Translations under genes and position numbers: made by a program
Shown: positions 2 to 19,798 of the stretch, piece after piece
Numbering within the stretch: position 1 is the first letter of the stretch
How the letters are laid out: every line of letters begins with the position of its first letter
Assembly (NCBI GenBank): GCA_023132135.1
Contig: JAGLYR010000108.1
Coordinates: 1-24,155 of the forward strand
Length of the DNA: 24,155 nt
Reading direction: 5' to 3'
Source of the DNA: Candidatus Eiseniibacteriota bacterium
GTDB lineage: Bacteria > Arandabacterota > Arandabacteria > JAGLYR01
Notes under the pieces: model-generated
Seen by the model: the letters and a program-made list of their open reading frames with translations, nothing else
Databases searched by the model: none
Told to the model about the DNA's origin: nothing

Positions 2-3000
2 CAGCAGGAACTGCGCAATCACCTCCGCGCACGGGCTCGCCAGCTTGGCGACCGTCAGGACTCGCGCAGCCGGCTATCCATCGATCACATCGTCAACGAG
101 TGTGCCTACGAGAACTGGCACCGGATGCTCTTTGCCCGGTTCCTAGCCGAGAACCACCTGCTCATCGAACCGGAGATGGGGGTGGCCATTAGCCTGGCGG
201 AGGCAGAGGAACTGGCCAAGGAAGAGGGATCAGACTTGTGGGTATTTGCCTCTCGCTGCGCCCAGCGGATGTTGCCGCAGATCTTCCGGCCAGATGATCC
301 TCTGCTTCAGGTGTCCTTCGCTACCGAGCACATGCTCAAGCTCGAAGGGCTGCTCGCGTCGCTACAGTCGTCAGTCTTCACCGCCTCCGATGCTCTGGGG
401 TGGGTCTACCAGTTCTGGCAGAGCAAGAAGAAGGACGAGGTTAACCGCTCGGAGGTCAAGATCGGCGCCGACGAACTACCGGCTGTGACACAGCTCTTTA
501 CCGAGCCATACATGGTGGAGTTCCTCATCCACAATACCCTCGGCGCGTGGTGGGCAGGCAAGAATCTTAACGCAGAGGACGCGGAGAACGCAGAGACGGA
601 AGAAGAGTTGAGGAAGAAACTGGCTCTTCCCGGCATCAACTGGGAATACCTTCGCCTTGTCCGCGAGGAAAATGGGGACTGGCTCAAGCGCAGGGCGAAG
701 CCCGAAGACGTGCCTGTCCCCGATTTTCCGACCCATGACGATCAGGCCCCAGCGACCGAGCATTTGGGACCGTGGCGCCCCGCCGCCGGGACCTTCGACG
801 GCTGGCCCAAAGCCGCCAAGGATATCAAGGTCCTTGACCCATGCTGTGGATCCGGCCATTTCTTGGTCGCGGCGCTGCACCACCTCGTGCCAATCCGCAT
901 GGCAGAGGAAGGCCTGTCGGCACGCGAGGCTATCGACGCAGTCCTCCGCGATAATATCCACGGCCTCGAGATCGACGAGCGTTGCTGTCAGATCGCCGCC
1001 TTCGCCCTGGCGTTCGCCGCATGGACCTATCCCAACCTCCCCTCGCCCTCTGGGAGAGGGGCCGGGGGTGAGGGAGTGTGTGCGCTCGGCTACCGGCCGC
1101 TGCCGGATCTGCACATCGCCTGCACCGGCATCGGGCCGCAGGCTACACAAGAACAGTGGCTCAACCTTGCCGAGCAGTCGGGTATGCCGACGGCCACAGA
1201 TGAGCGGACAAGGATCAAGAACGGCCTGCTCAACCTGCACCGGCTGTTCTCCCAGGCGCCCACACTGGGGTCGCTCATCAACCCTGCGGGACTTCGCGGG
1301 GATGTCTTCGCCGCCGACTACGTAACGATCCAGCCGTACCTGGCGGCGATCCTCAAGGCTGAGAAGGCCGACGACGAAATCCGCGAGCGCGTCATCGCCG
1401 CCGCCGGCATGGTCAAGGCCGCCGACCTGTTGGCCGGTAAGTACACGCTTGTCATCACGAATGTGCCGTATCTCGGGCGCGTGAAGCATGGCGAGGCACT
1501 CAAGGCATGGTTGGGGAGTCAGTATCCTCGCAGCAAGTCTGATTTGGCGGCGTGCTTTGTGGAACGTTGCCTCGGCTTTTGCGCTGCAAGTGGCACCACT
1601 GCGGCGCTCACGCCACAGACGTGGTTCTACCAGGCAGCCTACAAGAAAGCGCGGGTGCATCTGCTTCTGCATCTGGCATGGCACTTCGTGGCAAGGTTGG
1701 GCGAAGGGGGGTTCAGCAGCCAGGCGGCCGCTGGCGCGTTCACCGCCATGATCGTACTGAGCAAAGGCGCTCCTCCTAACGACTGGTCGTTTGCTGGCCT
1801 TGACGCTTCCCAGGAACGCGATCCCGCCGGTAAGGGACGGGCGCTGTCCGATCGACATACCGAGCGGCTCCTGCAGAGCGAACAGATCAGGAACCCCGAC
1901 CACAAGGTAACACTTCGCGCCCACTCGTCATCTGTGCGACTGACCGAATACTGCTCCTGCTACCTAGGTCTGGGTACTGGCGATTATGCGCACTACGGGC
2001 GGGTGTTTTGGGAATTCCAAGACTGCTCTGAAGATTGGGCACTGCATCAAAGCACGGTTGAGAAGCCATGCCTGTACGGTGGTCGTTGTAACGTAGTGGC
2101 TTGGGATCCCACCATCAACCGTGTCCGAGGTATGTCACCGACTGAGCGAGAGCAGATCCATAACCAAGACCAGACCGGCCAACAAGCATGGGGCAAGCCG
2201 GGCGTTGCCGTCGGGCTTATGCGCGAACTTAAGCCGACTCTCTACACGGGAGAGAAGTTCGAGAAGATGCTTGGCGTGCTGTTGCCCAGAGACCCCACTA
2301 TCATCCCTGCCCTCTGGGCCTATGTGAGCAGTCAGGACTTTGGCAAGTCCGTTCGGGAATTGGACAACGGCATCGTTGTTGCCAACGCGACCTTGGCGAA
2401 AGTTCCCTTCGATCTCGCCCACTGGCAGGAGGTCGCCGCAGAGAAGTACCCCGACGACTTGCCCGAGCCGGAGAGCGACGACCCGACGCAGTGGCTCTTT
2501 CACGGTCGGCCTGAGGAATCAACAGCGCCGCTTCAGGTTGCCGTGGCGCGGCTGCTGGGTTACGGCTGGCCGGCGGAACTCGATGAGGAAATGCGCCTCA
2601 GCCAGCGGGCACGCGAGCTGGTCAAGCAGTGTGGCGAGCTGCTCAAGTTTGCCGACAGCGATGGCATCGTCTGCATTCCGTCGGTGCGCGGCGAGGAACC
2701 CGCTGCCGGTCGCCTGCTTGGCTTACTCACTGCATGTGACGTTGAGATGGGGGGCGATCCGGAAGACTGGCTCCGGAATGACTTCTCCGAGGAACACTGC
2801 AAGCTCTTCCACAACCGGCCATTCATTTGGCACATCTGGGACGGCCGGAAGCGGGACGGCTTCCATGCTCTGGTCAACTACCACAAGCTTTGCGAAGGTG
2901 GTGGCAAGGGACGGAAATTGCTCGAATCACTCACGTACTCCTACCTGGGTTGGTGGATCAACCGACAGAAGGACGAAGTGAAGCGGGGAGAGGGTGGCGC

Positions 3001-3463
3001 GGAAGACCGTCTGGCCGCCGCGATGGAACTCCAGAAGCGATTGATAGCTATCTTGGCCGGGGAACCGCCTTTTGACATCTTTGTTCGCTGGAAGCCGCTA
3101 AGTGAGCAAGCCATCGGTTGGGAGCCTGACAGCAACGATGGAGTGCGGATGAACATCCGACCGTTCCTGTCCTCCGACCTGCCGAAAGGAGTATGCTCGG
3201 GCGCCCGGAAAGGCGCTGGCATTCTGCGACATAAACCAAACATCAAGTGGACCAAGGACCGCGGCAAGGAGCCAGAGAGACCCAAGGCCGAGTACCCGTG
3301 GTTCTGGGGCTGGGACGAGAAGACCGAGGATTTCATGGGTACCGGCAAGAAGCCAGACGGTAATCGCTGGAACGGCCTGCACTACACCAACAAGGTCAAG
3401 CAGAAGGCTAGGGAAAGACCCACCACGGAAGGCGCGGAGAGCCGGAGAGGAGAAACACAATGA
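2..3463 (+). CDS. pglX: PglX, BREX-1 type adenine-specific DNA methyltransferase (5' end outside window)
   Basis: The frame is open from base 2, and the residues before the first ATG at 125 (SIDHIVNECAYENWHRMLFA, from about 83) match PglX-type N-termini, so the true start lies left of the window. At least 1153 residues are visible. Counting from the ATG at 125, SAM-binding motif I is DPCCGSG at 238-244 and catalytic motif IV is TNVPYLG, with N446-V-P-Y449 in place of the usual NPPY. The C-terminus (PWFWGWDEKTEDFMG, then GNRWNGLHY) is typical of the family. PglX methylates host DNA at N6-adenine as the self-marking arm of BREX. The stop overlaps the next start (ATGA), so translation is probably coupled. 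Two dispersed repeats lie inside the reading frame (567-600, 1036-1076) without breaking it. BREX membership also rests on pglZ and brxL downstream; a related Eco57I-type methylase is the alternative. Confidence 0.9.
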   Translation, partial: QQELRNHLRARARQLGDRQDSRSRLSIDHIVNECAYENWHRMLFARFLAENHLLIEPEMGVAISLAEAEELAKEEGSDLWVFASRCAQRMLPQIFRPDDPLLQVSFATEHMLKLEGLLASLQSSVFTASDALGWVYQFWQSKKKDEVNRSEVKIGADELPAVTQLFTEPYMVEFLIHNTLGAWWAGKNLNAEDAENAETEEELRKKLALPGINWEYLRLVREENGDWLKRRAKPEDVPVPDFPTHDDQAPATEHLGPWRPAAGTFDGWPKAAKDIKVLDPCCGSGHFLVAALHHLVPIRMAEEGLSAREAIDAVLRDNIHGLEIDERCCQIAAFALAFAAWTYPNLPSPSGRGAGGEGVCALGYRPLPDLHIACTGIGPQATQEQWLNLAEQSGMPTATDERTRIKNGLLNLHRLFSQAPTLGSLINPAGLRGDVFAADYVTIQPYLAAILKAEKADDEIRERVIAAAGMVKAADLLAGKYTLVITNVPYLGRVKHGEALKAWLGSQYPRSKSDLAACFVERCLGFCAASGTTAALTPQTWFYQAAYKKARVHLLLHLAWHFVARLGEGGFSSQAAAGAFTAMIVLSKGAPPNDWSFAGLDASQERDPAGKGRALSDRHTERLLQSEQIRNPDHKVTLRAHSSSVRLTEYCSCYLGLGTGDYAHYGRVFWEFQDCSEDWALHQSTVEKPCLYGGRCNVVAWDPTINRVRGMSPTEREQIHNQDQTGQQAWGKPGVAVGLMRELKPTLYTGEKFEKMLGVLLPRDPTIIPALWAYVSSQDFGKSVRELDNGIVVANATLAKVPFDLAHWQEVAAEKYPDDLPEPESDDPTQWLFHGRPEESTAPLQVAVARLLGYGWPAELDEEMRLSQRARELVKQCGELLKFADSDGIVCIPSVRGEEPAAGRLLGLLTACDVEMGGDPEDWLRNDFSEEHCKLFHNRPFIWHIWDGRKRDGFHALVNYHKLCEGGGKGRKLLESLTYSYLGWWINRQKDEVKRGEGGAEDRLAAAMELQKRLIAILAGEPPFDIFVRWKPLSEQAIGWEPDSNDGVRMNIRPFLSSDLPKGVCSGARKGAGILRHKPNIKWTKDRGKEPERPKAEYPWFWGWDEKTEDFMGTGKKPDGNRWNGLHYTNKVKQKARERPTTEGAESRRGETQ
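567..600 (+). repeat. 9-bp tandem repeat inside pglX
   Basis: Three 9-bp units (ACGCAGAGG, ACGCGGAGA, ACGCAGAGA) at 570-596 encode the acidic run NAEDAENAETEEE. Arrays of this kind are, from memory, scattered between genes in many environmental genomes. Here the array sits in frame in a coding region and is probably an inserted, tolerated surface loop. Confidence 0.6.
1036..1076 (+). repeat. GC-rich palindromic dispersed repeat inside pglX
   Basis: The block includes a perfect hairpin, CCCTCT (1046-1051), loop GGG, AGAGGG (1055-1060), then GGGGGTGAGGGAG. It encodes the peptide LPSPSGRGAGGEG, which I recognise as a common translation of a widespread bacterial dispersed repeat. It falls between AFAAWTYPN and LGYRPLPDL, residues that look like normal methyltransferase sequence, so it reads as an in-frame insertion. 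Confidence 0.6.
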
Positions 3464-6105
3464 GCGCCGTCAGGTACGCACGGTTCTGGAAATGTGCACT
3501 GCAGCTCAATCCCTGGGACTATTTTGCAAAGTACCGTAACAAAAACCATGAACTGGATGAAGCCGCTTACAATGCAGAAGTGCTGCAGATCTGCCAGGCG
3601 GAAGACATACGTGTGGTAGGCATCGCTGACCACGGAAGCGTGGATACGCTGGACGCGCTTCGGCAGGTCTTGGAGGGTGGCGGCATCACGGTGTTTCCAG
3701 GATTTGAGATTGCCTCTTCTGAGAAGGCGCATTTCGTCTGCCTGTTTCCAGAAGGCACCTCAGTCCAGCAACTTGAACGGTATTTGGGGAGCCTGAAGCT
3801 TCTGGATCCTAAGGATGGCGTGCGGCCGTCATCGCTAAGCGCGGAGCAACTCTTGGAGGAGGTCGATAAGCTGGGAGGCATAGCCTACGCCGCACACTGC
3901 ACGGATGACAGCGGCGTGTTGCAGCGCAAACTGAACCATGTCTGGCAGAATCCTCTCCTTCAGGCCGCTCAGATCCCAGGCGCCCTCAATGAGCTGAAGG
4001 ACGACAACGGAATTGCCTACCGTCAGATTCTCCTCAATAAGGATCCCAATTACCGCCGTGATCGCGCGATCGGCGTCATCAATGCACGGGATGTCGCTGA
4101 GCCGAAGGATCTTCGTGCGCCGCAGACATGCTGCCTTGTGCGCATGACCCAGCCGGGCTTCGACGCCTTCAAGCAAGCGCTCCTTGACCCCGAATCCCGT
4201 GTACGACTGTTGAGTGATCGGGAAGAGCGATTCTTCTCTCGGCTGGAGCGAGTCCGGTTTACCGGGGGCTATCTACCGGGTGTGGATATCCGGTGGTCGG
4301 GGCATCTGGACACGATCATTGGCGGGCGTGGCACAGGGAAAACGACCCTGCTGGAGTGCATTCGCTATGCGCTGGAGCAAGAGCCCATCAGTGAACGAGC
4401 CAAGCGGACACACCGAGAGATCGTGAAACACAACCTCGGGGCCGGGCGCGTGAAACTCGACATCCGTTCCTTCACCATGCAAGGGCGTAAATTCACCATC
4501 TCCCGTCGCTATGGCGAGGCCGCGATTGTCCAGGACGAATCTGGGAACACCTCAACATTCAGGCCGGCGGACCTGCTTCCGCGATTGGAGATCTTCGGAC
4601 AAAACGAAATATTCGAGATTGCTCAGGACAATGGCGGACTGACGCGCCTTCTGCGGCGCTTCATCTCCGGCGGCGAAAAAGCGGAGCACCGGCGGGCCGA
4701 GATACGGGAGAAGCTACGGGCCAATGCGAAGCGCCTCATGGATGCTGGGGCCAAGCTTGCCGAAATCGAAGACCAGGTCGCGCGGCTGCCAAAGCTGGAG
4801 GAGCAGGCCAAGCAGTTCCAAGACATTGGTCTTGGCAAGAAGCTTGGCATTGTTCCGAAGCTGGAGAAGGAGAAGCAGCTCGCATCACGCGTGGGGGACG
4901 AACAATGCAATGTGGAGGAGGCGCTAACCGTCCTGCAAGATGCCTTGCCCGACACGGCTTTTCTCGGCGATGAAGCCGTCAAGGACCTGCCGCATGCTGA
5001 CGAACTCATAGGAATCCGGGAGTACCTGACTACGCTGCGCACCGACCTGGAGAGCTTGATTTCCAATGCCAGGCAAAGGCTGGATTCTACCAATACTGCG
5101 GTCAACGAGAGGCTGGCTGTTCTGAGGAAGGCAATTGCCGATGCTGAAGCGGCCCTAGAGAAAGAGTTCGCCAAGATTCCCGCGTTTGAGGGTCGCTCTG
5201 GTAGAGAAATCGGCTCCGCGTACCACCAAGTGCTCAAGGATATCGAACAGATTCGTCCCTTGAAGTCCGGTCGTGACACGCGGCAAGCGCTGGTCGATGA
5301 GCTGCGCAAGGAGCGGGAGAACCTTCTGGCAGACCTCTCGGAGGCAGTCGCCGATATGGCCGCGGAGATCGACGTTGAGTTAAAGTCGCTGCGCAGGAAG
5401 TTGGCGGGCAAGCTCAAGCCGTACGTCGATCACGCTGCAAATCGCAGGGTACTGAAGGGCTTTCTGTTGGAATGCAGTTTGGAGGGCGTGGGTGAGGCGA
5501 GGTTACGATGGCTTGATGAGGCGGAGGATTTCTCACCGGTCAAACTCGCCCAGACGATCCGACAGGGATCGGACGCGCTCAAGAACGCCGGTTGGGGGAT
5601 CACTCCCGGTGTTGCAGATGCGCTGACGAAACTACCGGAGTCGAAGTTGCTGGAACTCGAAGCCATGGAGTTGCCGGACATCATCCGGTTGGAGCTAAAC
5701 GTTGCACATGGCGACAGGGACAACTACCGCTCGATCAGTAAGCTCTCGACCGGTCAACAATGCACGGCTGTGCTGCATTTGCTGCTCCTCGATAACCGAG
5801 ACCCCCTGATTGTCGACCAGCCGGAAGACAATCTGGATAACGCATTCATTGCGGAACGCATCGTCAGTGAACTGCGCACCGCAAAGGTCGGTCGGCAGTT
5901 TATCTTCGCGACACACAACGCGAACATCCCGGTGTTCGGCGATGCAGAGTGGATTGGTGTATTGAAGGCGGGCGAACATCAAGCCAGCATGCCCGAGGAC
6001 TTGCAGGGGGCAGTCGACGTTCCTGAAATCCGAGAGCAGGCCGCCTTCATCCTGGAGGGAGGGCGCGAGGCGTTCATTCAGCGCAAAGAGAAATATGGCT
6101 TCTGA
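3460..6105 (+). CDS. TrlF-like protein: PHP domain plus SMC/ABC-type ATPase (BREX accessory)
   Basis: 881 residues. The N-terminal ~250 residues resemble a PHP phosphoesterase: ADHGSVD at 56-62, then FPGFEIAS at 79-86, H91 and AAH at 144-146. The first PHP metal motif (normally H-x-H) is absent, reading KCALQLNPWDY. An SMC/RecN-like ATPase follows: Walker A GGRGTGKTT at 288-296, a Q-loop-like FGQNEIFEI near 377, a long charged coiled-coil stretch (about 400-650), signature STGQQ near 762, Walker B LIVDQPEDNLDN near 784 and an H-loop ATHNAN near 819. The start overlaps the pglX stop by 4 nt; 15 nt with GGAGGTGG separate the stop from the next gene. The family is found with defence systems (established, from memory). 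The specific job in BREX is unknown; nucleic-acid sensing or processing coupled to ATP is inference. Confidence 0.82.
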   Translation: MSAVRYARFWKCALQLNPWDYFAKYRNKNHELDEAAYNAEVLQICQAEDIRVVGIADHGSVDTLDALRQVLEGGGITVFPGFEIASSEKAHFVCLFPEGTSVQQLERYLGSLKLLDPKDGVRPSSLSAEQLLEEVDKLGGIAYAAHCTDDSGVLQRKLNHVWQNPLLQAAQIPGALNELKDDNGIAYRQILLNKDPNYRRDRAIGVINARDVAEPKDLRAPQTCCLVRMTQPGFDAFKQALLDPESRVRLLSDREERFFSRLERVRFTGGYLPGVDIRWSGHLDTIIGGRGTGKTTLLECIRYALEQEPISERAKRTHREIVKHNLGAGRVKLDIRSFTMQGRKFTISRRYGEAAIVQDESGNTSTFRPADLLPRLEIFGQNEIFEIAQDNGGLTRLLRRFISGGEKAEHRRAEIREKLRANAKRLMDAGAKLAEIEDQVARLPKLEEQAKQFQDIGLGKKLGIVPKLEKEKQLASRVGDEQCNVEEALTVLQDALPDTAFLGDEAVKDLPHADELIGIREYLTTLRTDLESLISNARQRLDSTNTAVNERLAVLRKAIADAEAALEKEFAKIPAFEGRSGREIGSAYHQVLKDIEQIRPLKSGRDTRQALVDELRKERENLLADLSEAVADMAAEIDVELKSLRRKLAGKLKPYVDHAANRRVLKGFLLECSLEGVGEARLRWLDEAEDFSPVKLAQTIRQGSDALKNAGWGITPGVADALTKLPESKLLELEAMELPDIIRLELNVAHGDRDNYRSISKLSTGQQCTAVLHLLLLDNRDPLIVDQPEDNLDNAFIAERIVSELRTAKVGRQFIFATHNANIPVFGDAEWIGVLKAGEHQASMPEDLQGAVDVPEIREQAAFILEGGREAFIQRKEKYGF

Positions 6106-6120
6106 GAACGGAGGTGGCAG

Positions 6121-7362
6121 ATGCTCAAAGCCGAGCTCCTGGAGATCATTGCATCGGGCGAAAGCTCAGGCGTTGAGTTCAAGCGTGACGACGTGCGCCC
6201 CGAACAGATCGGGAAAGAGATCGTTGCCATGACCAACCTGAAGGGCGGGCGACTTTTACTTGGCGTAGAGGACGACGGGACGATCAGCGGGATTCAGCGA
6301 GCGGACACGGAGGAATGGGTGATGAACATCTTCGCCTCCAAGATCCACCCCATGCTCCTGCCCTTCTACGAAGAGGTGGCCATGGATGGTGGAAAACGCG
6401 TAGCGGCGGTCACCTTTACTGAAGGACCCAGCAAACCCTACGTCCTCAGACATGAGGGGCGCGAAGAGATATACATCCGAGTGGGTACCACTTCACGCCT
6501 GGCAACCCGAGAACAGCAGGCTCGCCTTCATGAAATGGGCGGCATGCTGCACGCCGAGTTGCTCCCGGTCTCTGGCGCCGGACTGGATGCTCTCGACCGA
6601 CAACGTCTATCCGATTTCCTGGATCACATCACGCGCGACGCCGCCATGCCACAATCAGAAGCCGAGTGGTACGGCCGTCTGTCCGCCCTCGGCTTCATGA
6701 CCGACGGTCCGGGAGGAGTACCCGTTTGTACGATTGCGGGAATTCTGCTCTTCGGTCAGGCCCCACGCCGGTTTCTGCGTCACGCCGGCATTCGACTGAT
6801 GATCTTCGAGGGGAAAGAGAAGACGTATGACGCACGCTATGACCGAGTCCTTGACAGTCCGATCCTTTCCTTGTGGACCAAGTCCGGCGACAGCGGGCGT
6901 GTTCGCTCGGGTGATGGACTTCTCGACAAAGCCGACGCGATCCTGAAGCCCTATATCACCGACGAGAGCGATGAAATCGGCGAGGGCTTTCGCAGAGATG
7001 CGGCGCCACGTTTCTCTCGTGAAGTCATCCGAGAAATTCTGCTGAATGCGGTCGCCCACCGCGACTGGACACGATTCACCGACATTGAGCTTGTTGTCTA
7101 TGCCGACAGGTTGGAGGTGACCAGCCCTGGGCCACTGCCCAATACAATGACGATTGAAAAGATGATAGCGGGGCAGCGTTCGCCGAGGAACCTTCTCCTT
7201 GTCGATGTCCTCCGAGATTATGACTACGTCGATGCGCGGGGGATCGGTATCCGTAACAAGGTGATCCCGCGCGTACGTAAAATGACCGGTCGCGACCCAA
7301 TCTTCGAGGAGACGGACGACTACCTGAAGACCACCGTGCCCGCAGCCGGAGCCACCATATGA
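6121..7362 (+). CDS. AlbA_2/Schlafen-type putative DNA-binding, ATP-binding protein
   Basis: 413 residues. The N-terminal AlbA_2 (SLFN) domain covers about 8-130: ESSGVEFKRDD, then IGKEIVAMTNLKGGRLLLGVEDDG, then IYIRVGTTSRLA. The C-terminal third resembles the HATPase_c_4 module of RecG-like transcriptional-regulator proteins: EVIREILLNAVAHRDW near 301-316, then LEVTSPGPLPN and RGIGIRNKVIPRV. These proteins are commonly labelled ATP-binding or putative DNA-binding, without a proven reaction. GGAGGTGGCAG precedes the ATG. The 3' end overlaps pglZ by ATGA, so it is translated as part of the BREX operon. Regulation of the operon or nucleic-acid sensing are both possible roles and neither is shown by the sequence. 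Confidence 0.82.
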   Translation: MLKAELLEIIASGESSGVEFKRDDVRPEQIGKEIVAMTNLKGGRLLLGVEDDGTISGIQRADTEEWVMNIFASKIHPMLLPFYEEVAMDGGKRVAAVTFTEGPSKPYVLRHEGREEIYIRVGTTSRLATREQQARLHEMGGMLHAELLPVSGAGLDALDRQRLSDFLDHITRDAAMPQSEAEWYGRLSALGFMTDGPGGVPVCTIAGILLFGQAPRRFLRHAGIRLMIFEGKEKTYDARYDRVLDSPILSLWTKSGDSGRVRSGDGLLDKADAILKPYITDESDEIGEGFRRDAAPRFSREVIREILLNAVAHRDWTRFTDIELVVYADRLEVTSPGPLPNTMTIEKMIAGQRSPRNLLLVDVLRDYDYVDARGIGIRNKVIPRVRKMTGRDPIFEETDDYLKTTVPAAGATI

Positions 7363-9707
7363 ACGACGCAACGACCCTCCTTGAGGCGGTCCGCGCCTCG
7401 CTTGCCCACGCCGCGCGACACAACCCCGGCGATGTAGTAGCGCCAGCGGCGATTCTGTGGGCAGACGCGGATGGCCAATGGCGACCCGTTGTAGAGCAGC
7501 TGCGGGCACTGATGCCTGAGCTTCTGACGCTCGGAGAGTACGATACCGAGACCCGAACTGGGCCGGCGATCTGGCTGCGGTGTGTGGTCGAGCCCGAGGT
7601 GCGGGCTAAGACGTTCCCCGATCTCGCTTGGCCAGAAGACGCCGTGCCGGTGATCTACATGCCGGGCGTGAGCCGCCAGACACTCCGAGCGGTCGAAGAA
7701 TGCCCGGGTGCGCTCAAGCCGCTAGTCGAGCTCCAGTATCGCGGGACTGTCTGGACACAGAAGAACGGGAAAGACTGGACCGTGCGGGCGTTCCTGGTGA
7801 GCGACGACGGTGGGCTGGGTCTGGATGTTGCCGAAGATCGGGTGACATTGGAATCCATGCTCGGATCGCTGTCAGAACTGGCGGTGACCCCGATTGCGTT
7901 CCTCACCGGCAAGCGTTTGGAAGCAGAAGAATTCGACAACCTCGTGATCGGAGACACACCGCGGGATCTTCTGAAATGGCTGAGTGATCCTCCGGGCTCG
8001 CGCGAACAATGGAATGAAGCGAAGTGGTCAGCTTTTCGGAATCGGTGCCGGGAGGAGTACAGTTTCGATCCAGAGACCGACGGCGAGCTCGTGGGCGCGG
8101 AGAATCTGGGCCAGCGGAAGGATACCTGGTCCGTTGTCTGGCAACGTTTCGCTGAGTCACCGGCGCTATATCCTGGAATTCCGGACCTGCTGCGGCGGGC
8201 CAAGCCGATTAGCCAGCTGACGTTCGACAAAGAGCCATGGCCGGACGAAAGCGAGTCGATGGAGAGCGAGCTGCGCGAGGCGTTGGTCGAAGTCGGTTCA
8301 ATGACGCCGGAGGAGGCGCGGCAACGCTTGGGACAGCTGGAGGTCGAGCATGGAATGCGCCGGGGATGGGTCTGGGCGCGGCTGGGTATGTGTTCCCTGG
8401 CCAATGCAATGGAACACCTTTCGGTCCTGGCTGAGCGTACAGCTGCGACGTTGGGTGGGGAATCTGCGGACGCAATGGCTAGACTGTATGGCGAGAGTGG
8501 TTATCTGGTGGACAACGCCGTCTTGCGTGCTCTCGAGTGCGTGAAATTGGCACAGGACACGGCCGCGGTACATGCAGCAGTCCGTTGCGTCTACCTTCCG
8601 TGGCTGGAAAACACCACCACGCACTTCCAGGAGTGCTTGGCGAAGCAACGGTTGCCGGTGGCAACTGAACAGGAGAGCTTCCAGATCGAGCCGGGCGAGT
8701 GCGTTCTCTTTGTAGACGCTCTGCGTTTCGATGTGGCCCAACGCTTTGCGGCGATGGCTGGTGAGCGGCAGATCGAGGTTTCATCCGGCCGGCGTTGGGC
8801 GGCTCTACCAACGGTTACAGCTACAGCAAAGCCAGCGTCTTCACCGGTTGCTGCAAGACTGCGCGGCGAACGACCGGAGGGAGACTTTTGTCCGGGATTG
8901 AGCGACACCGGAGAGAGGTTAACCACGGACAGGCTTCGCAAACTACTTGCGGCCGAGGGTTTTCAGGTCTTCGACGCGGCGGAGACAGGTGATCCGCAGA
9001 GCACGGACGCGCGCGGCTGGACCGAGTACGGCGAGTTTGACAAGCTGGGTCATGCTCTCCAAGCGAAGCTGGTGGCTCGGATCGACGATCAGTTGGCCCT
9101 CCTGCTAGAGAGAGTAGAGGGGCTGCTGAAAGCGGGCTGGAAGCGGGTACGAGTAGTCACTGACCATGGCTGGCTGCTTTTGCCGGGCGGTCTGCCGAAG
9201 GCTGACTTGCCGAAGTATCTTGCCGAGAGTCGCTGGTCGCGGTGTGCGTCTATCAAGGACAGCTCCCACGTTCAAGTGCCGGTGGCCGGTTGGTACTGGA
9301 ATCCGAAGGAACGGTTTGCCTACGCGCCAGGTGTGTGCTGCTTCGTGAAGGGTCGGGACTATGCCCACGGAGGCGTGAGTCTGCAGGAGTGCGTCATTCC
9401 TGTCTTGGCCCTAGCCTCGACTGCGCCAGCGCGCGTACCCTCGACAGTAAGTGAGGTTCTCTGGGTGGGTCTGCGTTGTCGGGTGACCGTGCAACCGGCG
9501 AGCGAGGGACTACAGGCCGACCTGCGGACTCAGCCAAACAACCCGAACTCGAGCATTGTGGAGCCAAAGACCCTGGATACACAGGGGAAAACAGCGTTGC
9601 TGGTCGCCGACGATTCCTACGAGGGAACGATGGCGAGCGTCGTGATCCTTGACAAGTCCGGGCGCGTGGTATGCAAGGAGGCCACGACAGTTGGAGGTGG
9701 AGAATAG
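7359..9707 (+). CDS. pglZ: PglZ, BREX-1 phosphatase-like protein, type B
   Basis: 782 residues. The N-terminus (HNPGDVVAPAAILWADADGQ) and the following TETRTGPAIWLRCVVEP fit the type B PglZ group. The alkaline-phosphatase-superfamily core is in the C-terminal half: CVLFVDALRFDVA at 448-460 (D453 and D458), VTDHGWLL with D602-H603, and HGGVSLQE at 670-677, all consistent with metal-binding segments. PglZ is essential for BREX and interacts with PglX in studied systems (established); its exact substrate is debated. The start is an ATGA overlap with the AlbA_2 gene, and the stop is one base before the brxL ATG. Confidence 0.92.
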   Translation: MNDATTLLEAVRASLAHAARHNPGDVVAPAAILWADADGQWRPVVEQLRALMPELLTLGEYDTETRTGPAIWLRCVVEPEVRAKTFPDLAWPEDAVPVIYMPGVSRQTLRAVEECPGALKPLVELQYRGTVWTQKNGKDWTVRAFLVSDDGGLGLDVAEDRVTLESMLGSLSELAVTPIAFLTGKRLEAEEFDNLVIGDTPRDLLKWLSDPPGSREQWNEAKWSAFRNRCREEYSFDPETDGELVGAENLGQRKDTWSVVWQRFAESPALYPGIPDLLRRAKPISQLTFDKEPWPDESESMESELREALVEVGSMTPEEARQRLGQLEVEHGMRRGWVWARLGMCSLANAMEHLSVLAERTAATLGGESADAMARLYGESGYLVDNAVLRALECVKLAQDTAAVHAAVRCVYLPWLENTTTHFQECLAKQRLPVATEQESFQIEPGECVLFVDALRFDVAQRFAAMAGERQIEVSSGRRWAALPTVTATAKPASSPVAARLRGERPEGDFCPGLSDTGERLTTDRLRKLLAAEGFQVFDAAETGDPQSTDARGWTEYGEFDKLGHALQAKLVARIDDQLALLLERVEGLLKAGWKRVRVVTDHGWLLLPGGLPKADLPKYLAESRWSRCASIKDSSHVQVPVAGWYWNPKERFAYAPGVCCFVKGRDYAHGGVSLQECVIPVLALASTAPARVPSTVSEVLWVGLRCRVTVQPASEGLQADLRTQPNNPNSSIVEPKTLDTQGKTALLVADDSYEGTMASVVILDKSGRVVCKEATTVGGGE

Positions 9708-9708
9708 C

Positions 9709-11757
9709 ATGGAACTTGATCATCTTGACCAACTCGCGGCTTCGGCCTTTGATGGGTATCTTGTTCGAAAGGACCTGGTGCGCCGGTACAGCCGGCAGTT
9801 CCCCGTCCCCACGTATGCAGTCGAGTTTCTCCTCGGCAGGTACTGCGCCTCTGTGGACGAGGATGAAATTGCCGAAGGGCTCCAGGTCGTTGAGCGACAG
9901 CTCACGGATCGAACGGTTAGAACTGGACAGGAGGAGCTTTTCAAGGCTCGTGCCCGGGAAAAGGGGCAAGTGAAGCTTATTGACCTCGTGAAAGCCAAGC
10001 TCGATTCGAAAAACGACTGCTTCATCGCAGAGCTCCCCAGCCTGCAACTTACAAAGGTCCGAATCTCCGATGATATCGTCCACAACCACGAGCGAATGCT
10101 TACAGGTGGCTTCTACGCCGAGGTGACACTAGAGTATGACGCCGCAATTGCTCAGGAACAGGGAGGGCGGCCTTTTTGCGTCACCGGCCTGAGGGCCATT
10201 CAGCTATCGAAAACGGATGCGCTCACGAGTCTTTCCCGGGGAAGGTCTCAGTTCACAACATCGGAATGGGTAGACTTGCTGATCCGGTCTGTGGGTTTGG
10301 AGCCAGCCGCTTTGTCGGAGAGGGCTCGCTGGGTAGCGCTCCTTCGAATGGTCCCCTTTGTCGAGCGGAACTACAACGTCGTGGAGCTGGGGCCACGCGG
10401 GACCGGCAAGAGCCACCTGTATCAGCAAATCTCACCGAACTCCCACCTGATCTCCGGTGGTAAGGCAACCGTGGCCAAGATGTTTGTCAACAACGCGAAC
10501 GGGCAGCGAGGACTCGTGTGTCAGTACGATGTTGTGTGCTTCGATGAGATCTCGGGCATCTCCTTCGACAAGAAGGACGGCGTCAACATAATGAAGGGTT
10601 ACATGGCTGCGGGCGAGTTCTCTAGAGGGAAAGAGAGCATTCGCGCCTCAGGCAGCCTCGTGATGGTCGGGAATTTCGATGTGGACGTTCAACAACAGCA
10701 GAGGATCAGCCACCTCCTTGGACCACTGCCCCCAGAGATGCGCAATGACACAGCGTTCATGGACAGGGTCCATTCCTATCTGCCTGGGTGGGAGTTCCCA
10801 AAACTGAATCCCAACGAGCACCTGACGAACCATTTCGGTTTGGTAAGTGATTTCCTGTCAGAATGCTGGAGCAAGCTCCGAGAAGTCAGCCGAGTCTCGA
10901 TTCTCCAGGGTAGGGTTAACTGGGGAGGGGCACTAAGCGGGCGAGATATCGAGGGGGTCAGCAAGACGGTAAGTGGCTTGATCAAACTCCTGTACCCTGA
11001 TCCCTCCACTCCAGTGCCTGAAGAAGAACTGGAGAAAGTCGTACGAGTCGGACTTGAGAGCCGCCGGCGAGTGAAGGAACAACAGAAGAGAATCTTGAAG
11101 ACGGAATTCCGAAACACGCACTTCAGCTATTTCATGGGCGTGGACGGAATTGAGCAATTCGTATCGACTCCGGAACTTCACAGCGACGATGCTATCGAAG
11201 GAGATCCTCTTCCGCCCGGGCAGGTGTGGGCCATCAGTCCGGGAGCAGAAGGTGCTGGGGTCGGGCTCTATCGAATCGAGATCACTGCAGGTCCGGGTGG
11301 AAGCGTCCGGATTCTGAATGCGCAGGTGCCGGCGACATTTCGTGAAAGCGTCAAGTTCGCAGAGCAGAACCTGTATGTGAGAGCGCGAGAACTGGTTGGT
11401 GATCGGGATCCCAGGGCACACGAGTTCTCGATTCAGCTCCGAGCTATCGACGCAGACCGCTCAGGTGCTGGTCTAGGACTCGCAGTTCTCATTGCTCTAA
11501 GCGGAGCGCTCCTCGAGCGGAGCACAAAGGGCGGTCTGATCATCGTCGGTGCCCTCAATCTCGGCGGCTCGATAGAGATGGTTCTGAATCCCGTGACCGT
11601 GGTCGAACTCGCTGTGGAGAAAGGCGCCACAAGTGTCCTCATGCCAGTTTCCGCTCGAAAGCAGCTCTTCGATCTCTCTGACGACATGGCAACGAAGGTG
11701 AATATCGAATTCTACTCGGATCCGGGGGACGCGCTGTTGAAGGCGCTACTGGAGTAG
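9709..11757 (+). CDS. brxL: BrxL, AAA+ ATPase with Lon-like C-terminal domain
   Basis: 682 residues from the ATG at 9709, preceded by TTGGAGGTGG. A start 20 codons upstream would overlap pglZ and adds non-conserved residues. The N-terminus LAASAFDGYLVRKDLVRRY fits BrxL. AAA+ core: Walker A GPRGTGKS at 228-235 and Walker B VVCFDE with D279-E280. The Lon-like fold runs from about 530 to the end (RSGAGLGLAVLIALS; KGGLIIVGALNLGGSIE). The canonical Lon Ser-Lys dyad is not evident: the Ser-Ala-Gly position reads G586-A-G and the Lys position falls near V629. Structures of BrxL show an MCM-like DNA-binding ring required for restriction (established), which fits a non-proteolytic Lon fold. It is the last gene of the coupled operon; no U-tract terminator follows. 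Confidence 0.92.
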   Translation: MELDHLDQLAASAFDGYLVRKDLVRRYSRQFPVPTYAVEFLLGRYCASVDEDEIAEGLQVVERQLTDRTVRTGQEELFKARAREKGQVKLIDLVKAKLDSKNDCFIAELPSLQLTKVRISDDIVHNHERMLTGGFYAEVTLEYDAAIAQEQGGRPFCVTGLRAIQLSKTDALTSLSRGRSQFTTSEWVDLLIRSVGLEPAALSERARWVALLRMVPFVERNYNVVELGPRGTGKSHLYQQISPNSHLISGGKATVAKMFVNNANGQRGLVCQYDVVCFDEISGISFDKKDGVNIMKGYMAAGEFSRGKESIRASGSLVMVGNFDVDVQQQQRISHLLGPLPPEMRNDTAFMDRVHSYLPGWEFPKLNPNEHLTNHFGLVSDFLSECWSKLREVSRVSILQGRVNWGGALSGRDIEGVSKTVSGLIKLLYPDPSTPVPEEELEKVVRVGLESRRRVKEQQKRILKTEFRNTHFSYFMGVDGIEQFVSTPELHSDDAIEGDPLPPGQVWAISPGAEGAGVGLYRIEITAGPGGSVRILNAQVPATFRESVKFAEQNLYVRARELVGDRDPRAHEFSIQLRAIDADRSGAGLGLAVLIALSGALLERSTKGGLIIVGALNLGGSIEMVLNPVTVVELAVEKGATSVLMPVSARKQLFDLSDDMATKVNIEFYSDPGDALLKALLE

Positions 11758-11918: not shown

Positions 11919-13601
11919 ATGAAGAAGAGAGTCCGACAAATCAACTTCTACTTGATGAAACGAAGCGATCGTGAATTCGGAGACGTGCTCAAGAACCCCA
12001 GTGTCCTCCACCGCGAAGATGTGAGCGCTGAGTGGGGATTTGAGGCTGCTCTGTTTCTGCGAGATCCAAAGGCTCGGATTCCCTGGTGGCTGAAATTCCT
12101 ACAAACAGCTTTCCCGGATATCGAGCCCCGCTTCAAGAATGTCAGTAATGCCGCCGTCTTGTTGGTCCGCGCAGGCTCTCGGATGCTGGCGATTACATTT
12201 GGCTACGGAAAGTATCTCTTGGATCCAGACTGCTATGAATCCGATTTCGGCCTCAAGGTTGCATTGAACACGATCAATCCCGAGCGCCTACGGAGTGTCG
12301 ATGTGAGGACTATTGAAGAGCTAACTCTTCAAACCAGGAAGCAAGCAAGCCGGGGCTCATCCGTGGAAACGTTTGGCTTGGACGTGACTAGCGATCTCTT
12401 GAGGGGTGTCACGGGAGAACCCCGTGATGCAGATTTTGCCAAAAGGGTCACTGGAGCTGACGCCCTCGTGCTGATATTGCCAGCAGCATTTGGGGATTTG
12501 GGCAAGAAATGTGAAGAGATCTTGAGGGCCTATGAGAGTGATTCATACAAAGAGCATTTCAGTTGGATCGACCATCTACGCGGTGTGAGAGATGCAAATG
12601 TTATTCAGGTTCTGGACACTCAGATGGTTCAATCCATTCGCGATGGGGATAGCGACTCTCTTCATATGGCCCCCCCGGAACCTGTGGACTGGGAGCAAGT
12701 GGAGGGGTTCAGCTATTCCACGCGAAGGGGCCATCAGGTCCTGGACGCAGACATGGATTTCGACGAGTTCTTCGACACTGTTCAGGACCCCCACGCACTC
12801 TCTTCGGTGGGATTGAGAAAGGCTCGTGTGCTCGTGAAGCTTACAGGGATGGACCGAGCGGTGCCTCGTTGGTCCGTCTATAGTTGTCTCGTCTTCGAGA
12901 CAGATTACAATGGTTCCCTGTATGTCTTGTCCGGTGGTCGATGGTTCTGCGTTGAGCGTGACTTCGCGGGCGAAGTCCAGGACTTCGTAGGTGCCCTGCC
13001 TGTTTCGCGCCTGGAGATCCCTAGGAGTCAAGTTGGCGAGTGGGAGAGCGACTACAACAAACGAGCGGCCAACTCTCGGCCCGACATAGTGCTGATGGAC
13101 AGGCAGTTAGCTAGATGTGGCGGTGGGCACGGGCCAATTGAAGTCTGCGATCTCTTCACTTCCGAAAGGCAGTTCGTTCACGTCAAGCGCAAATACCGTT
13201 CGTCGACTCTCAGCCACCTGTTTGCGCAGGGAACGGTCTCTGCCGAGGCGTTCCTCCGTGATGAGAACTTCCGCAGCGACGCTCGGAGCATCTTGACGAC
13301 AGCTGGTTCGGAACTAGCTGGCTTGATTCCGGCCGAAAGGCCCCTAGCTGGAGACTTTGAAGTCGTGTTCGCTATTATCACGGGGAAGGCTGGGCACGTG
13401 GGAAAAAGCCTTCCTTTCTTCAGCAAGCTACATCTCATGCAGGCTGCGCGACGACTTCAGCTTCTGGGGTACAAAGTGGGAGTCTACGGAATTCCCTTTG
13501 TTGGTCGGGCCAAGCCGGAGAGTGTCCTGGATCCTGCTGCTTTGCCGGCAGGCGATGTCGGCTACTCGGAAACCATTGGTCCTCTCAGGACACAACAGTG
13601 A
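11919..13601 (+). CDS. TIGR04141/DUF6119 family protein
   Basis: 560 residues; AAGGCGGTGTGAA precedes the ATG. I recognise the sporadically distributed TIGR04141 (DUF6119) family from the N-terminus (VRQINFYLMK), the central GFEAALFLRDPK-type segment and the C-terminal block PIEVCDLFTSERQFVHVKRK followed by SSTLSHLFAQGTVSAEAF. The family occurs patchily, often in defence or mobile regions, with no established biochemistry known to me. The block RPDIVLMD (near 387) to DLFT and HVKRK (near 420) has the spacing of a nuclease-like D...D...xxK core, but His replaces the usual acidic residue, so nuclease activity is only a guess. It lies 161 nt after brxL. Unlike the GC-rich genes further right, long antisense reading frames are largely absent here, suggesting different codon composition and separate acquisition. 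Confidence 0.72.
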   Translation: MKKRVRQINFYLMKRSDREFGDVLKNPSVLHREDVSAEWGFEAALFLRDPKARIPWWLKFLQTAFPDIEPRFKNVSNAAVLLVRAGSRMLAITFGYGKYLLDPDCYESDFGLKVALNTINPERLRSVDVRTIEELTLQTRKQASRGSSVETFGLDVTSDLLRGVTGEPRDADFAKRVTGADALVLILPAAFGDLGKKCEEILRAYESDSYKEHFSWIDHLRGVRDANVIQVLDTQMVQSIRDGDSDSLHMAPPEPVDWEQVEGFSYSTRRGHQVLDADMDFDEFFDTVQDPHALSSVGLRKARVLVKLTGMDRAVPRWSVYSCLVFETDYNGSLYVLSGGRWFCVERDFAGEVQDFVGALPVSRLEIPRSQVGEWESDYNKRAANSRPDIVLMDRQLARCGGGHGPIEVCDLFTSERQFVHVKRKYRSSTLSHLFAQGTVSAEAFLRDENFRSDARSILTTAGSELAGLIPAERPLAGDFEVVFAIITGKAGHVGKSLPFFSKLHLMQAARRLQLLGYKVGVYGIPFVGRAKPESVLDPAALPAGDVGYSETIGPLRTQQ

Positions 13602-15849: not shown

Positions 15850-15920
15850 GGTAGGAAGAGGGGATTGGGGGTCAAGTCTTGCATGCGCGCATGCGGCAGG
15901 GAAACCCGGAGGTTGTCGAA

Positions 15921-16334
15921 ATGTTCCGCATCGGGCTATTGGTTGTCCTCGCGATGCTGTGTCTGATGATCGGTTGTTTCCCCTTTGGCAAAGGCCCGGG
16001 TGCGGCCAGGAACATTGAGCTGACGGCGGGCGATGACGGCCGGACGATCAGGATGCTTGAGGGCGGGATTCTGATCGTGGCTCTGGAATCCAACCCCAGC
16101 ACAGGATACACGTGGGAAGCTGTCGGGATTGACGAGAAAATCCTGCGCCGGATCGGCGAAAAGGAGTGGCGGCAGAAGCCCGGTACGGAAGGGATGATGG
16201 GCGCGCCGGGAACCATGCGGATCCGGTTTGAGGCGGTGGGGAAGGGGAGCGCGAACCTGAAACTCGTGTACCATCGGCCGTGGGAGAGGGAGAAACCTGA
16301 AGAGACGTTTTCGATCGAAGTTGTGGTGCGCTAG
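15921..16334 (+). CDS. Chagasin-like (MEROPS I42) protease inhibitor lipoprotein
   Basis: 137 residues from ATG 15921, preceded by CGGAGG (15906-15911) 9 nt upstream; an ATG at 15879 would add 14 residues before the signal peptide. Residues 1-18 are a hydrophobic signal ending in a lipobox-like MIGC with C19, so the protein is probably an envelope lipoprotein. The I42 loops are visible: NPSTGYTW at about 58-65, GAPGTMRIRFEAVGKG in the middle and the RPWE motif in YHRPWERE. Length fits the family. Chagasin-type proteins inhibit papain-like cysteine proteases; the target here is unknown and no such protease lies in the window. Probably has its own transcription unit. Confidence 0.85.
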   Translation: MFRIGLLVVLAMLCLMIGCFPFGKGPGAARNIELTAGDDGRTIRMLEGGILIVALESNPSTGYTWEAVGIDEKILRRIGEKEWRQKPGTEGMMGAPGTMRIRFEAVGKGSANLKLVYHRPWEREKPEETFSIEVVVR

Positions 16335-17897: not shown

Positions 17898-18021
17898 TTA
17901 ACCCGCATTTCTCACCAGCCTCGTCGCGAGGCGTTGTAGATACCTGTAATGACGAGTATGACAAAGTCAGTGCAGGTAGATACGCCGCCGCAGCAGATGG
18001 CTGGTGAGAAATGCGGGTTAA
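17898..18021. mobile_element. MITE-like element with perfect terminal inverted repeats and TTAA ends
   Basis: The left repeat CCCGCATTTCTCACCAGCC (17902-17920) is a perfect 19-bp inverted match to GGCTGGTGAGAAATGCGGG (17999-18017). Each side is flanked by TTAA (17898-17901 and 18018-18021), giving a 116-bp element with an apparent TTAA target duplication. There is no transposase inside, so it would need one in trans. TTAA targeting and this size suggest a relative of IS1380/piggyBac-type elements, which is inference. A solo end occurs at 14672-14699. Confidence 0.75.
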
Positions 18022-18109: not shown

Positions 18110-18184
18110 GCGCGGTACGTTTGGATCTGTGTGATTTCTCGTCGCTCTTTTGACCCTGTTCAGATCCCAAGGAGGTTGCTCGAC

Positions 18185-19561
18185 GTGTTGAAGCCATGGG
18201 AAAGGGTTCCGGCAGTGGTGGGACTCGCTGGATTCGTGGCGTTGGGGGTCGGCTGTTCCATCATGCCGGAGAAAGAGCCCATCCCTGATGAACTGGCTAT
18301 CCTGTTCACCGCTTCCACCGGTGCCGAGATTGAGCCCTGCGGCTGACACGCCGCCGACAAAGGCGATCTGGCCCGGAGGGTCGGACACATTCAGGAGTTC
18401 AGGGAAGGAAACGCCGCTCCCCTCGTCCTCGATGCCGGGGATTTCTTCGGCCCCAAATCTCCGCCCCGGGAGCGCGACAAGAGCAAGATTGTGAGCCGGA
18501 TCATGGGCATTGCCCAGTACGATGTGGTGGGAATCGGGGAGGCGGAGCTCCGCTATGGCTTGGGTTTCCTCCGTTCCCAGATTAAGGCTCATGATCTCCC
18601 CGCTGTCTCGGCCAACCTGGTCTATCTGGACTCGGGAGACTACATTGTCGAGCCGTACAGCGTGGTGAAACGCGGAGGGTTCAAGGTCGGGGTGACGGCT
18701 GTATCGGGAGAGCTGGAAAGCTTCAGGGGCAAGGAGAGCCTCAAGGACTGGCGCGACCAGAACGTTACGCTCTCGGATCCCGAGACCGCGTTGACCGAGG
18801 TCATCGACAGAATGCGGCAGAAGGAAAAAGTGGACCTGGTGATCGTTCTCTCGCATATGGGTTATGAGGAAGGGGCCAAACTTGGGGAGGCGATCCCGGG
18901 AATCGATGTCTGGATAGAGGCCCACAACCGCGGGCGTATGGTTACGCCGGAGAAGAAGGGTGAGACCATCTATGCCGCTTGCCGGGGCCGTTCTTCCGGG
19001 TACGGCGAGCTGTATCTGTCCTTGGCAGAGGAAGGTGCTGTCAGCAACTTCGTGGGGCGGGCGGGGGGTCTTACCAGCAAGGGCAGGTCGGATGAGGCGG
19101 CGTTGGCTGTGATCATGGAGTTCAAGCAGGCCGGCAAGAAGCCCACACGCCGGGTGAGGAAGGCCGACCAGCCCGTCGTGGATGCGGCCATGGTCTCCAA
19201 GGATACGTTTGTGAGCGCGGAGTCTTGCAGGAAGTGCCATGCAGGGGTCTATGAGTCGTGGGCGATGACGGGGCATGCCTCCGCCTATGCGACCATTGCT
19301 GAGACCGCTCAGTGGAACGATCCTGACTGCCTGATCTGCCATACTACCGGCTATGGTGAAATGAGCGACCCTGAGTCGGGGATGATCGAGCCCAAGTTCT
19401 GGAACGTGCAGTGCGAGTCGTGCCACGGGATGGGTACCCAGCACTCCAGGCATCCGGGAGCCGCCGAGGTGCCCGAGCATGTCTGCCTTGAATGTCACAA
19501 CCAGAGCAACAGTCCCGAGTTCGACTACGATGCGTATGTGGAACACATCGTTCATCATTAA
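18185..19561 (+). CDS. UshA-like tetraheme cytochrome c, probable selenoprotein (in-frame TGA = Sec54)
   Basis: Read as 458 residues across the in-frame TGA at 18344-18346. The GTG start at 18185 has AAGGAGG 9 nt upstream; an upstream GTG at 18131 lacks this. Residues 9-24 (PAVVGLAGFVALGVGC) look like a lipoprotein signal with an imperfect lipobox. A degenerate metallophosphoesterase/5'-nucleotidase-like domain follows: FTASTGAEIEPCG-Sec54-H, LDAGDFFG, GIGEAEL and LSHMGYEEG, with AHNRG where GHTH is usual. The C-terminal part has four c-type heme sites: CRKCH (348-352), CLICH (382-386), CESCH (410-414), CLECH (434-438). Reading frame and homology-like sequence continue intact after the TGA (HAADKGDLARRVGHIQEF). 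I recall an NCBI-named group of UshA-like (seleno)proteins; membership is unchecked. A nonsense-mutated pseudogene is the alternative. It likely acts in the periplasm or on the outer face of the cell in electron transfer. Confidence 0.75.
18344..18385 (+). promoter_or_regulatory. UGA codon with candidate bacterial SECIS stem-loop
   Basis: After the TGA (18344-18346), bases 18367-18374 (TCTGGCCC) pair with 18378-18385 (GGGTCGGA) in an 8-bp stem with two G-U pairs, and the loop is GGA (18375-18377). The loop begins 28 nt after the TGA and starts with G, within the distance and loop rules described for bacterial SECIS elements. A smaller alternative is CGCC/GGCG around GACAAA (18352-18365). Confidence 0.6.
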
Positions 19562-19621
19562 GACCGGGATTATGCATGAATGGGTATGCCCGCGATGTGT
19601 TGGTGCGTTGTAGGACAGGAG

Positions 19622-19719
19622 AATAGACAATAGAGAATAGACCGCAATAGAGAAGTGTGAAGGTGTTTCTATGATGCTCTTGTCCGTGATCTATTCTCTA
19701 TTGTCTACTTCTCTATTGC
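19622..19719. repeat. Inverted heptamer-type repeats
   Basis: TAGACAATAGAGAATAGA (19624-19641) has a perfect 18-bp inverted copy at 19690-19707, and GCAATAGAGAAG (19644-19655) has one at 19708-19719. The order A-B-A'-B' is not a simple hairpin. The units (ATAGACA, ATAGAGA) belong to the same heptamer family as the array at 17764. Confidence 0.7.
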
Positions 19720-19722
19720 TCT

Positions 19723-19768
19723 GCCTGGACTATGCACAAATCCTTCCGGATTTGTGCATAGTCCAGGC
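19723..19768. repeat. Perfect 21-bp-arm palindrome
   Basis: Arms at 19723-19743 and 19748-19768 are perfect reverse complements (GCCTGGACTATGCAC... and its complement) around the loop TTCC. No T-tract follows, and related half-sites at 15721-15740 and 19566-19581 show that it is a dispersed repeat, probably two ends brought together head to head. Confidence 0.75.
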
Positions 19769-19798
19769 TAAGGGTTACGGGTGCCACAAGAAAGTCCG

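Follow-up and report, generated by a model that had tools for sequence, protein, structure and literature searches.

A selenoprotein of the UshA-like group COG0737 carrying a CxU motif was reported, with 76 sequences, in a 2008 survey of marine metagenomes (PMC2398784), and a 2026 review (PMC13188914) enters the family NF041198 with CxU and NF049981 with CxxU. The gene described here lies in a window of 24,155 nucleotides (the whole stretch of DNA that was analysed) from a Candidatus Eiseniibacteriota bacterium. Comparison with these systems gives good support for regarding it as a new example within an already named selenoprotein family, and not as a new kind.

The UshA-like tetraheme gene occupies positions 18185 to 19561 on the forward strand, as do the other mapped parts of the gene, and would encode 458 amino acids with UGA codon 54 read as selenocysteine (Sec); this assignment is based on the match to NF041198 (E 5.4e-77) and on full-length alignment with orthologues. 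As read from the window sequence, the start codon is GTG at 18185, preceded at a distance of 9 nt by a Shine-Dalgarno-like AGGAGG (18170-18175), and the terminator is TAA at 19559-19561. A preliminary description had reported that one TGA breaks an otherwise continuous UshA-like tetraheme frame. The frame of 458 codons does contain this TGA, at 18344-18346, and no other internal stop, and four CxxCH sites lie downstream of it. Residues 50 to 54 are E-P-C-G-UGA, giving the P-C-G-U form of the PCG-U/C motif expected in NF041198. With standard gene callers the product would be cut at residue 53, or merely the downstream ORF 18491-19561 would be reported. An N-terminal hydrophobic signal sequence is evident from the sequence itself (18185-18259). 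Its last residues, LGVGC, compared by hand with the lipobox pattern, make a lipoprotein signal at C24 possible. Intergenic inverted repeats, noted by eye only, flank the gene at 17900-18020 and 19610-19770, for example aacccgcatttctcaccag and its complement.

The predicted protein shares the PCGU motif and the UshA-like domain with NCBIfam NF041198 (UshA_like_PCGU, "UshA-like (seleno)protein"). The match is significant in two stretches covering both halves of the model, the C-terminal part of which extends over the cytochrome tail; the protein differs from the model in having no match to model positions 273-356. Its score of 259.5 bits is 15.5 under the curated cut-off of 275 bits, the NCBI naming threshold, and so fails it, and the homologues L020 (276) and L054 (286) pass. 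By homology the protein is best classed as a slightly divergent member of NF041198, not as an equivalog under the NCBI rule. A related UshA-like domain is also found in NF049981, UshA-like (seleno)protein family 2 (E 1.3e-9), but the motif of that family is CxxU and the score of 37.9 is far under its cut-off of 140. The thiosulfohydrolase SoxB (TIGR04486; structures 2wdc and 4uwq) belongs to the same domain superfamily (E 1.4e-14), with a score of 53.3 against a cut-off of 550. To our knowledge, SoxB has neither a heme tail nor a CGU motif. The heme-binding region resembles cytochrome c554 (Pfam PF13435, E 1.2e-11), here fused to a phosphoesterase-like domain. The COG0737 selenoprotein, the source of which was marine metagenomes, likewise has CxU in a UshA-like protein; the passages of the survey dealing with it (PMC2398784) contain no discussion of a heme domain, which the window protein does carry. 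A literature search for PCGU gave no match.

Homologues were sought in 60 related genomes. The gene was identified in 7/7 of the same-class relatives searched, each copy having one TGA, at the identical aligned codon in all seven. Five further distinct homologues (L026, L028, L054, L055 and L056) have TGA at this codon, and four distant ones (L027, L029, L030 and L031) have Cys, encoded by TGC or TGT. Among the aligned homologues residue 54 is TGA in 12 others and Cys in 4, and nothing else; Cys (EPCGC) was the residue given for related proteins in the preliminary description. The columns of C52, G53 and C/U54 were invariant in an alignment of 14 sequences. The pattern at residue 54, as seen in these alignments, is that of a classic Sec/Cys exchange, which makes a sequencing error or a pseudogene implausible.

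If the TGA were a real stop or a sequencing error, the gene would be a pseudogene or the product of mis-assembly, and a recent nonsense mutation or a base-call error would indeed give a single in-frame stop of this kind. Twelve further distinct homologues nevertheless share a TGA at the aligned codon, flanked in each direction by conserved protein, and such recurrence in practice excludes a chance sequencing error; together with Cys at residue 54 in the distant homologues and the presence of Sec machinery in the genome, it leaves this explanation highly improbable. Reassignment of UGA genome-wide, or its reading by a suppressor, would place Trp or another residue at codon 54. Beyond the in-frame TGA itself nothing was found in its favour, whereas, of 12 ORFs inspected in the window, six terminate in TGA, and homologues without TGA at this codon invariably have Cys, so that the probability of reassignment or suppression is negligible. 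The TGA-terminated ORFs include those ending at 3463 (pglX), 6105 (TrlF-like), 7362 (AlbA_2-like) and 22125 (VWA-like). These four had been cited previously as showing that UGA is not globally reassigned, and since all of them do end in TGA, UGA functions as a stop elsewhere in the window.

A search of the genome (3.40 Mb in 345 contigs, 96% complete) for selA, selB, selC and selD had been proposed as a check, and all were found: a tRNA-Sec with anticodon UCA (L001), selA (543 bits), selB (356 bits) and two strong copies of selD. The other tRNA-Sec-like matches checked besides L001 were tRNA-Leu, tRNA-Ser and tRNA-Trp. One selD, on contig C44, is intact; the other (L013, G000:C86:3990-4913) has an in-frame TGA within GAGUACK, which we take to be the usual Sec site of SelD. 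Based on this TGA, it is very probably a second Sec-using gene of the genome.

The published limits for bacterial SECIS elements are a loop of 3-9 nt with G within the first two positions, a stem of 4-16 bp, a distance of 16-37 nt from the UGA and a minimum free energy of at most -7.5 (PMC13188914). A putative hairpin at 18367-18385, UCUGGCCC-GGA-GGGUCGGA, is the minimum-energy fold for that stretch and falls within every one of these limits, with a 3-nt GGA loop, a stem of 8 bp, a distance of 28 nt and a stem energy of -10.6 kcal/mol. The preliminary description had placed the hairpin 28 nt after the UGA; the structure and its GGA loop were recovered, but 28 nt is the distance to the loop, the stem beginning 20 nt after the UGA. 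By itself the hairpin is weak evidence for Sec, because, when simplified rules are applied to six genes of the window, a passing hairpin comes after 6.8% of their codons (1.3% for one equally stable). That relatives conserve both the TGA and the stem codons indicates that it is more than a chance structure. The stem codons are those of residues 62-67, and the synonymous choice at these is nearly constant among 13 Sec forms (Leu CUG in 12/13, Ala GCC in 12/13, the first Arg CGG in 12/12). A codon entropy as low was obtained in 0/100,000 degeneracy-matched draws from the same gene, a figure which is not an exact probability because the sequences are related. Judged in this way, the stem codons are conserved beyond protein constraint. 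In one Sec form (L028) the hairpin differs from that of the others. Compensatory changes in the hairpin were few and not above shuffles, as expected of an element within a conserved coding stretch, and covariation is not claimed. A search of Rfam with the window and the region around the UGA, at E up to 1, matched no family.

The Sec machinery, the TGA/Cys homologues, the fit to the SECIS model and the conservation of the stem codons support the selenoprotein reading of the preliminary description, and UGA 54 is almost certainly read as Sec. Comparison strongly supports a mechanism in which SelB and tRNA-Sec would decode this codon, steered by the downstream hairpin.

The metallophosphoesterase domain of UshA/5'-nucleotidase type was located at 18305-19039. 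It matched the profiles of 5'-nucleotidases and SoxB, and Foldseek gave matches to 5'-nucleotidases. The cytochrome c554-type region was located at 19226-19498, with CxxCH heme-binding sites at residues 348, 382, 410 and 434. The predicted structure was confident in the domain core alone; pLDDT was below 50 for residues 51-57 and for the greater part of the heme region. The metal-ligand motifs are degenerate. Based on the alignments, the Asp and His of motif I correspond to Ser44 and Gly46, GNHE is GEAE and GHSH is AHNR, so that the full dinuclear metal-ligand set of 5'-nucleotidase and SoxB is absent; Asp86, His224 and His247 are kept at motif positions. The residues of motif I, GNHE and GHSH are assumed to bind metal, from general knowledge of UshA. 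Because of these replacements a normal dinuclear phosphoesterase centre is unlikely. The C-G-Sec motif ends eight residues past motif I, and the degenerate site beside it, taken with the tail of four hemes, points to a redox enzyme of the periplasm.

The selenoprotein might still be a metal-dependent nucleotidase or phosphatase in which Sec is a metal ligand and not a redox centre. Fold and profile both match 5'-nucleotidases and the three residues named above persist, yet the loss of the motif I Asp and His, the change of GNHE to GEAE and the electron transfer implied by the fused hemes argue against this function, which is considered rather unlikely. A redox role is probable.

In seven class relatives (L048, L049, L050, L051, L052, L053 and L057) the gene is found, in whole or in part, in the order DUF1573, rhodanese, MauE/DoxX, UshA-like selenoprotein, NapH-like, with SIR2 following the NapH-like gene where the contig extends. 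The DUF1573 protein of this cluster shows a weak resemblance to the OS_HP2 (seleno)protein family. Two Cys forms adjoin TlpA-like or DsbA-like genes. The DUF1573, rhodanese, MauE/DoxX and NapH-like cluster is absent around the window gene, and the case for sulfur chemistry therefore draws no support from that gene's own neighbours. Elsewhere in the window, BREX-type anti-phage defence genes (PglX, Ppl/TrlF-like ATPase, AlbA_2-like, PglZ and BrxL) occupy 2-11757, followed directly by the gene for a DUF6119 protein (11919-13601), and a Chagasin-family peptidase inhibitor I42 gene is located at 15879-16334.

A periplasmic oxidoreductase is the most likely working model. The protein would be exported, probably with a lipid anchor to judge from its signal sequence, and would acquire four c-type hemes. 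In its phosphoesterase-like domain, from which several customary metal ligands are missing, the C-G-Sec motif lies just past the first of the metal-ligand motifs; Sec would attack or bind the substrate and the hemes would carry electrons. The leading candidate substrate is a sulfur compound, since the domain resembles SoxB and several relatives adjoin rhodanese, DoxX/MauE and NapH-like genes. Sulfur chemistry is nonetheless a tentative proposal for the window protein. It is more doubtful still that the PCGU family as a whole is a heme-coupled, Sec-dependent sulfur oxidoreductase of SoxB-like fold, acting in the Eisenbacteria relatives alongside DUF1573, rhodanese and DoxX/MauE proteins and a quinol protein of NapH-like type.

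The window gene adds a Sec-using example in a poorly studied lineage, and the cluster conserved in its relatives is a concrete functional lead for a catalogued selenoprotein family. If the sulfur oxidoreductase reading of the PCGU family were true, it would represent a new periplasmic sulfur redox pathway.
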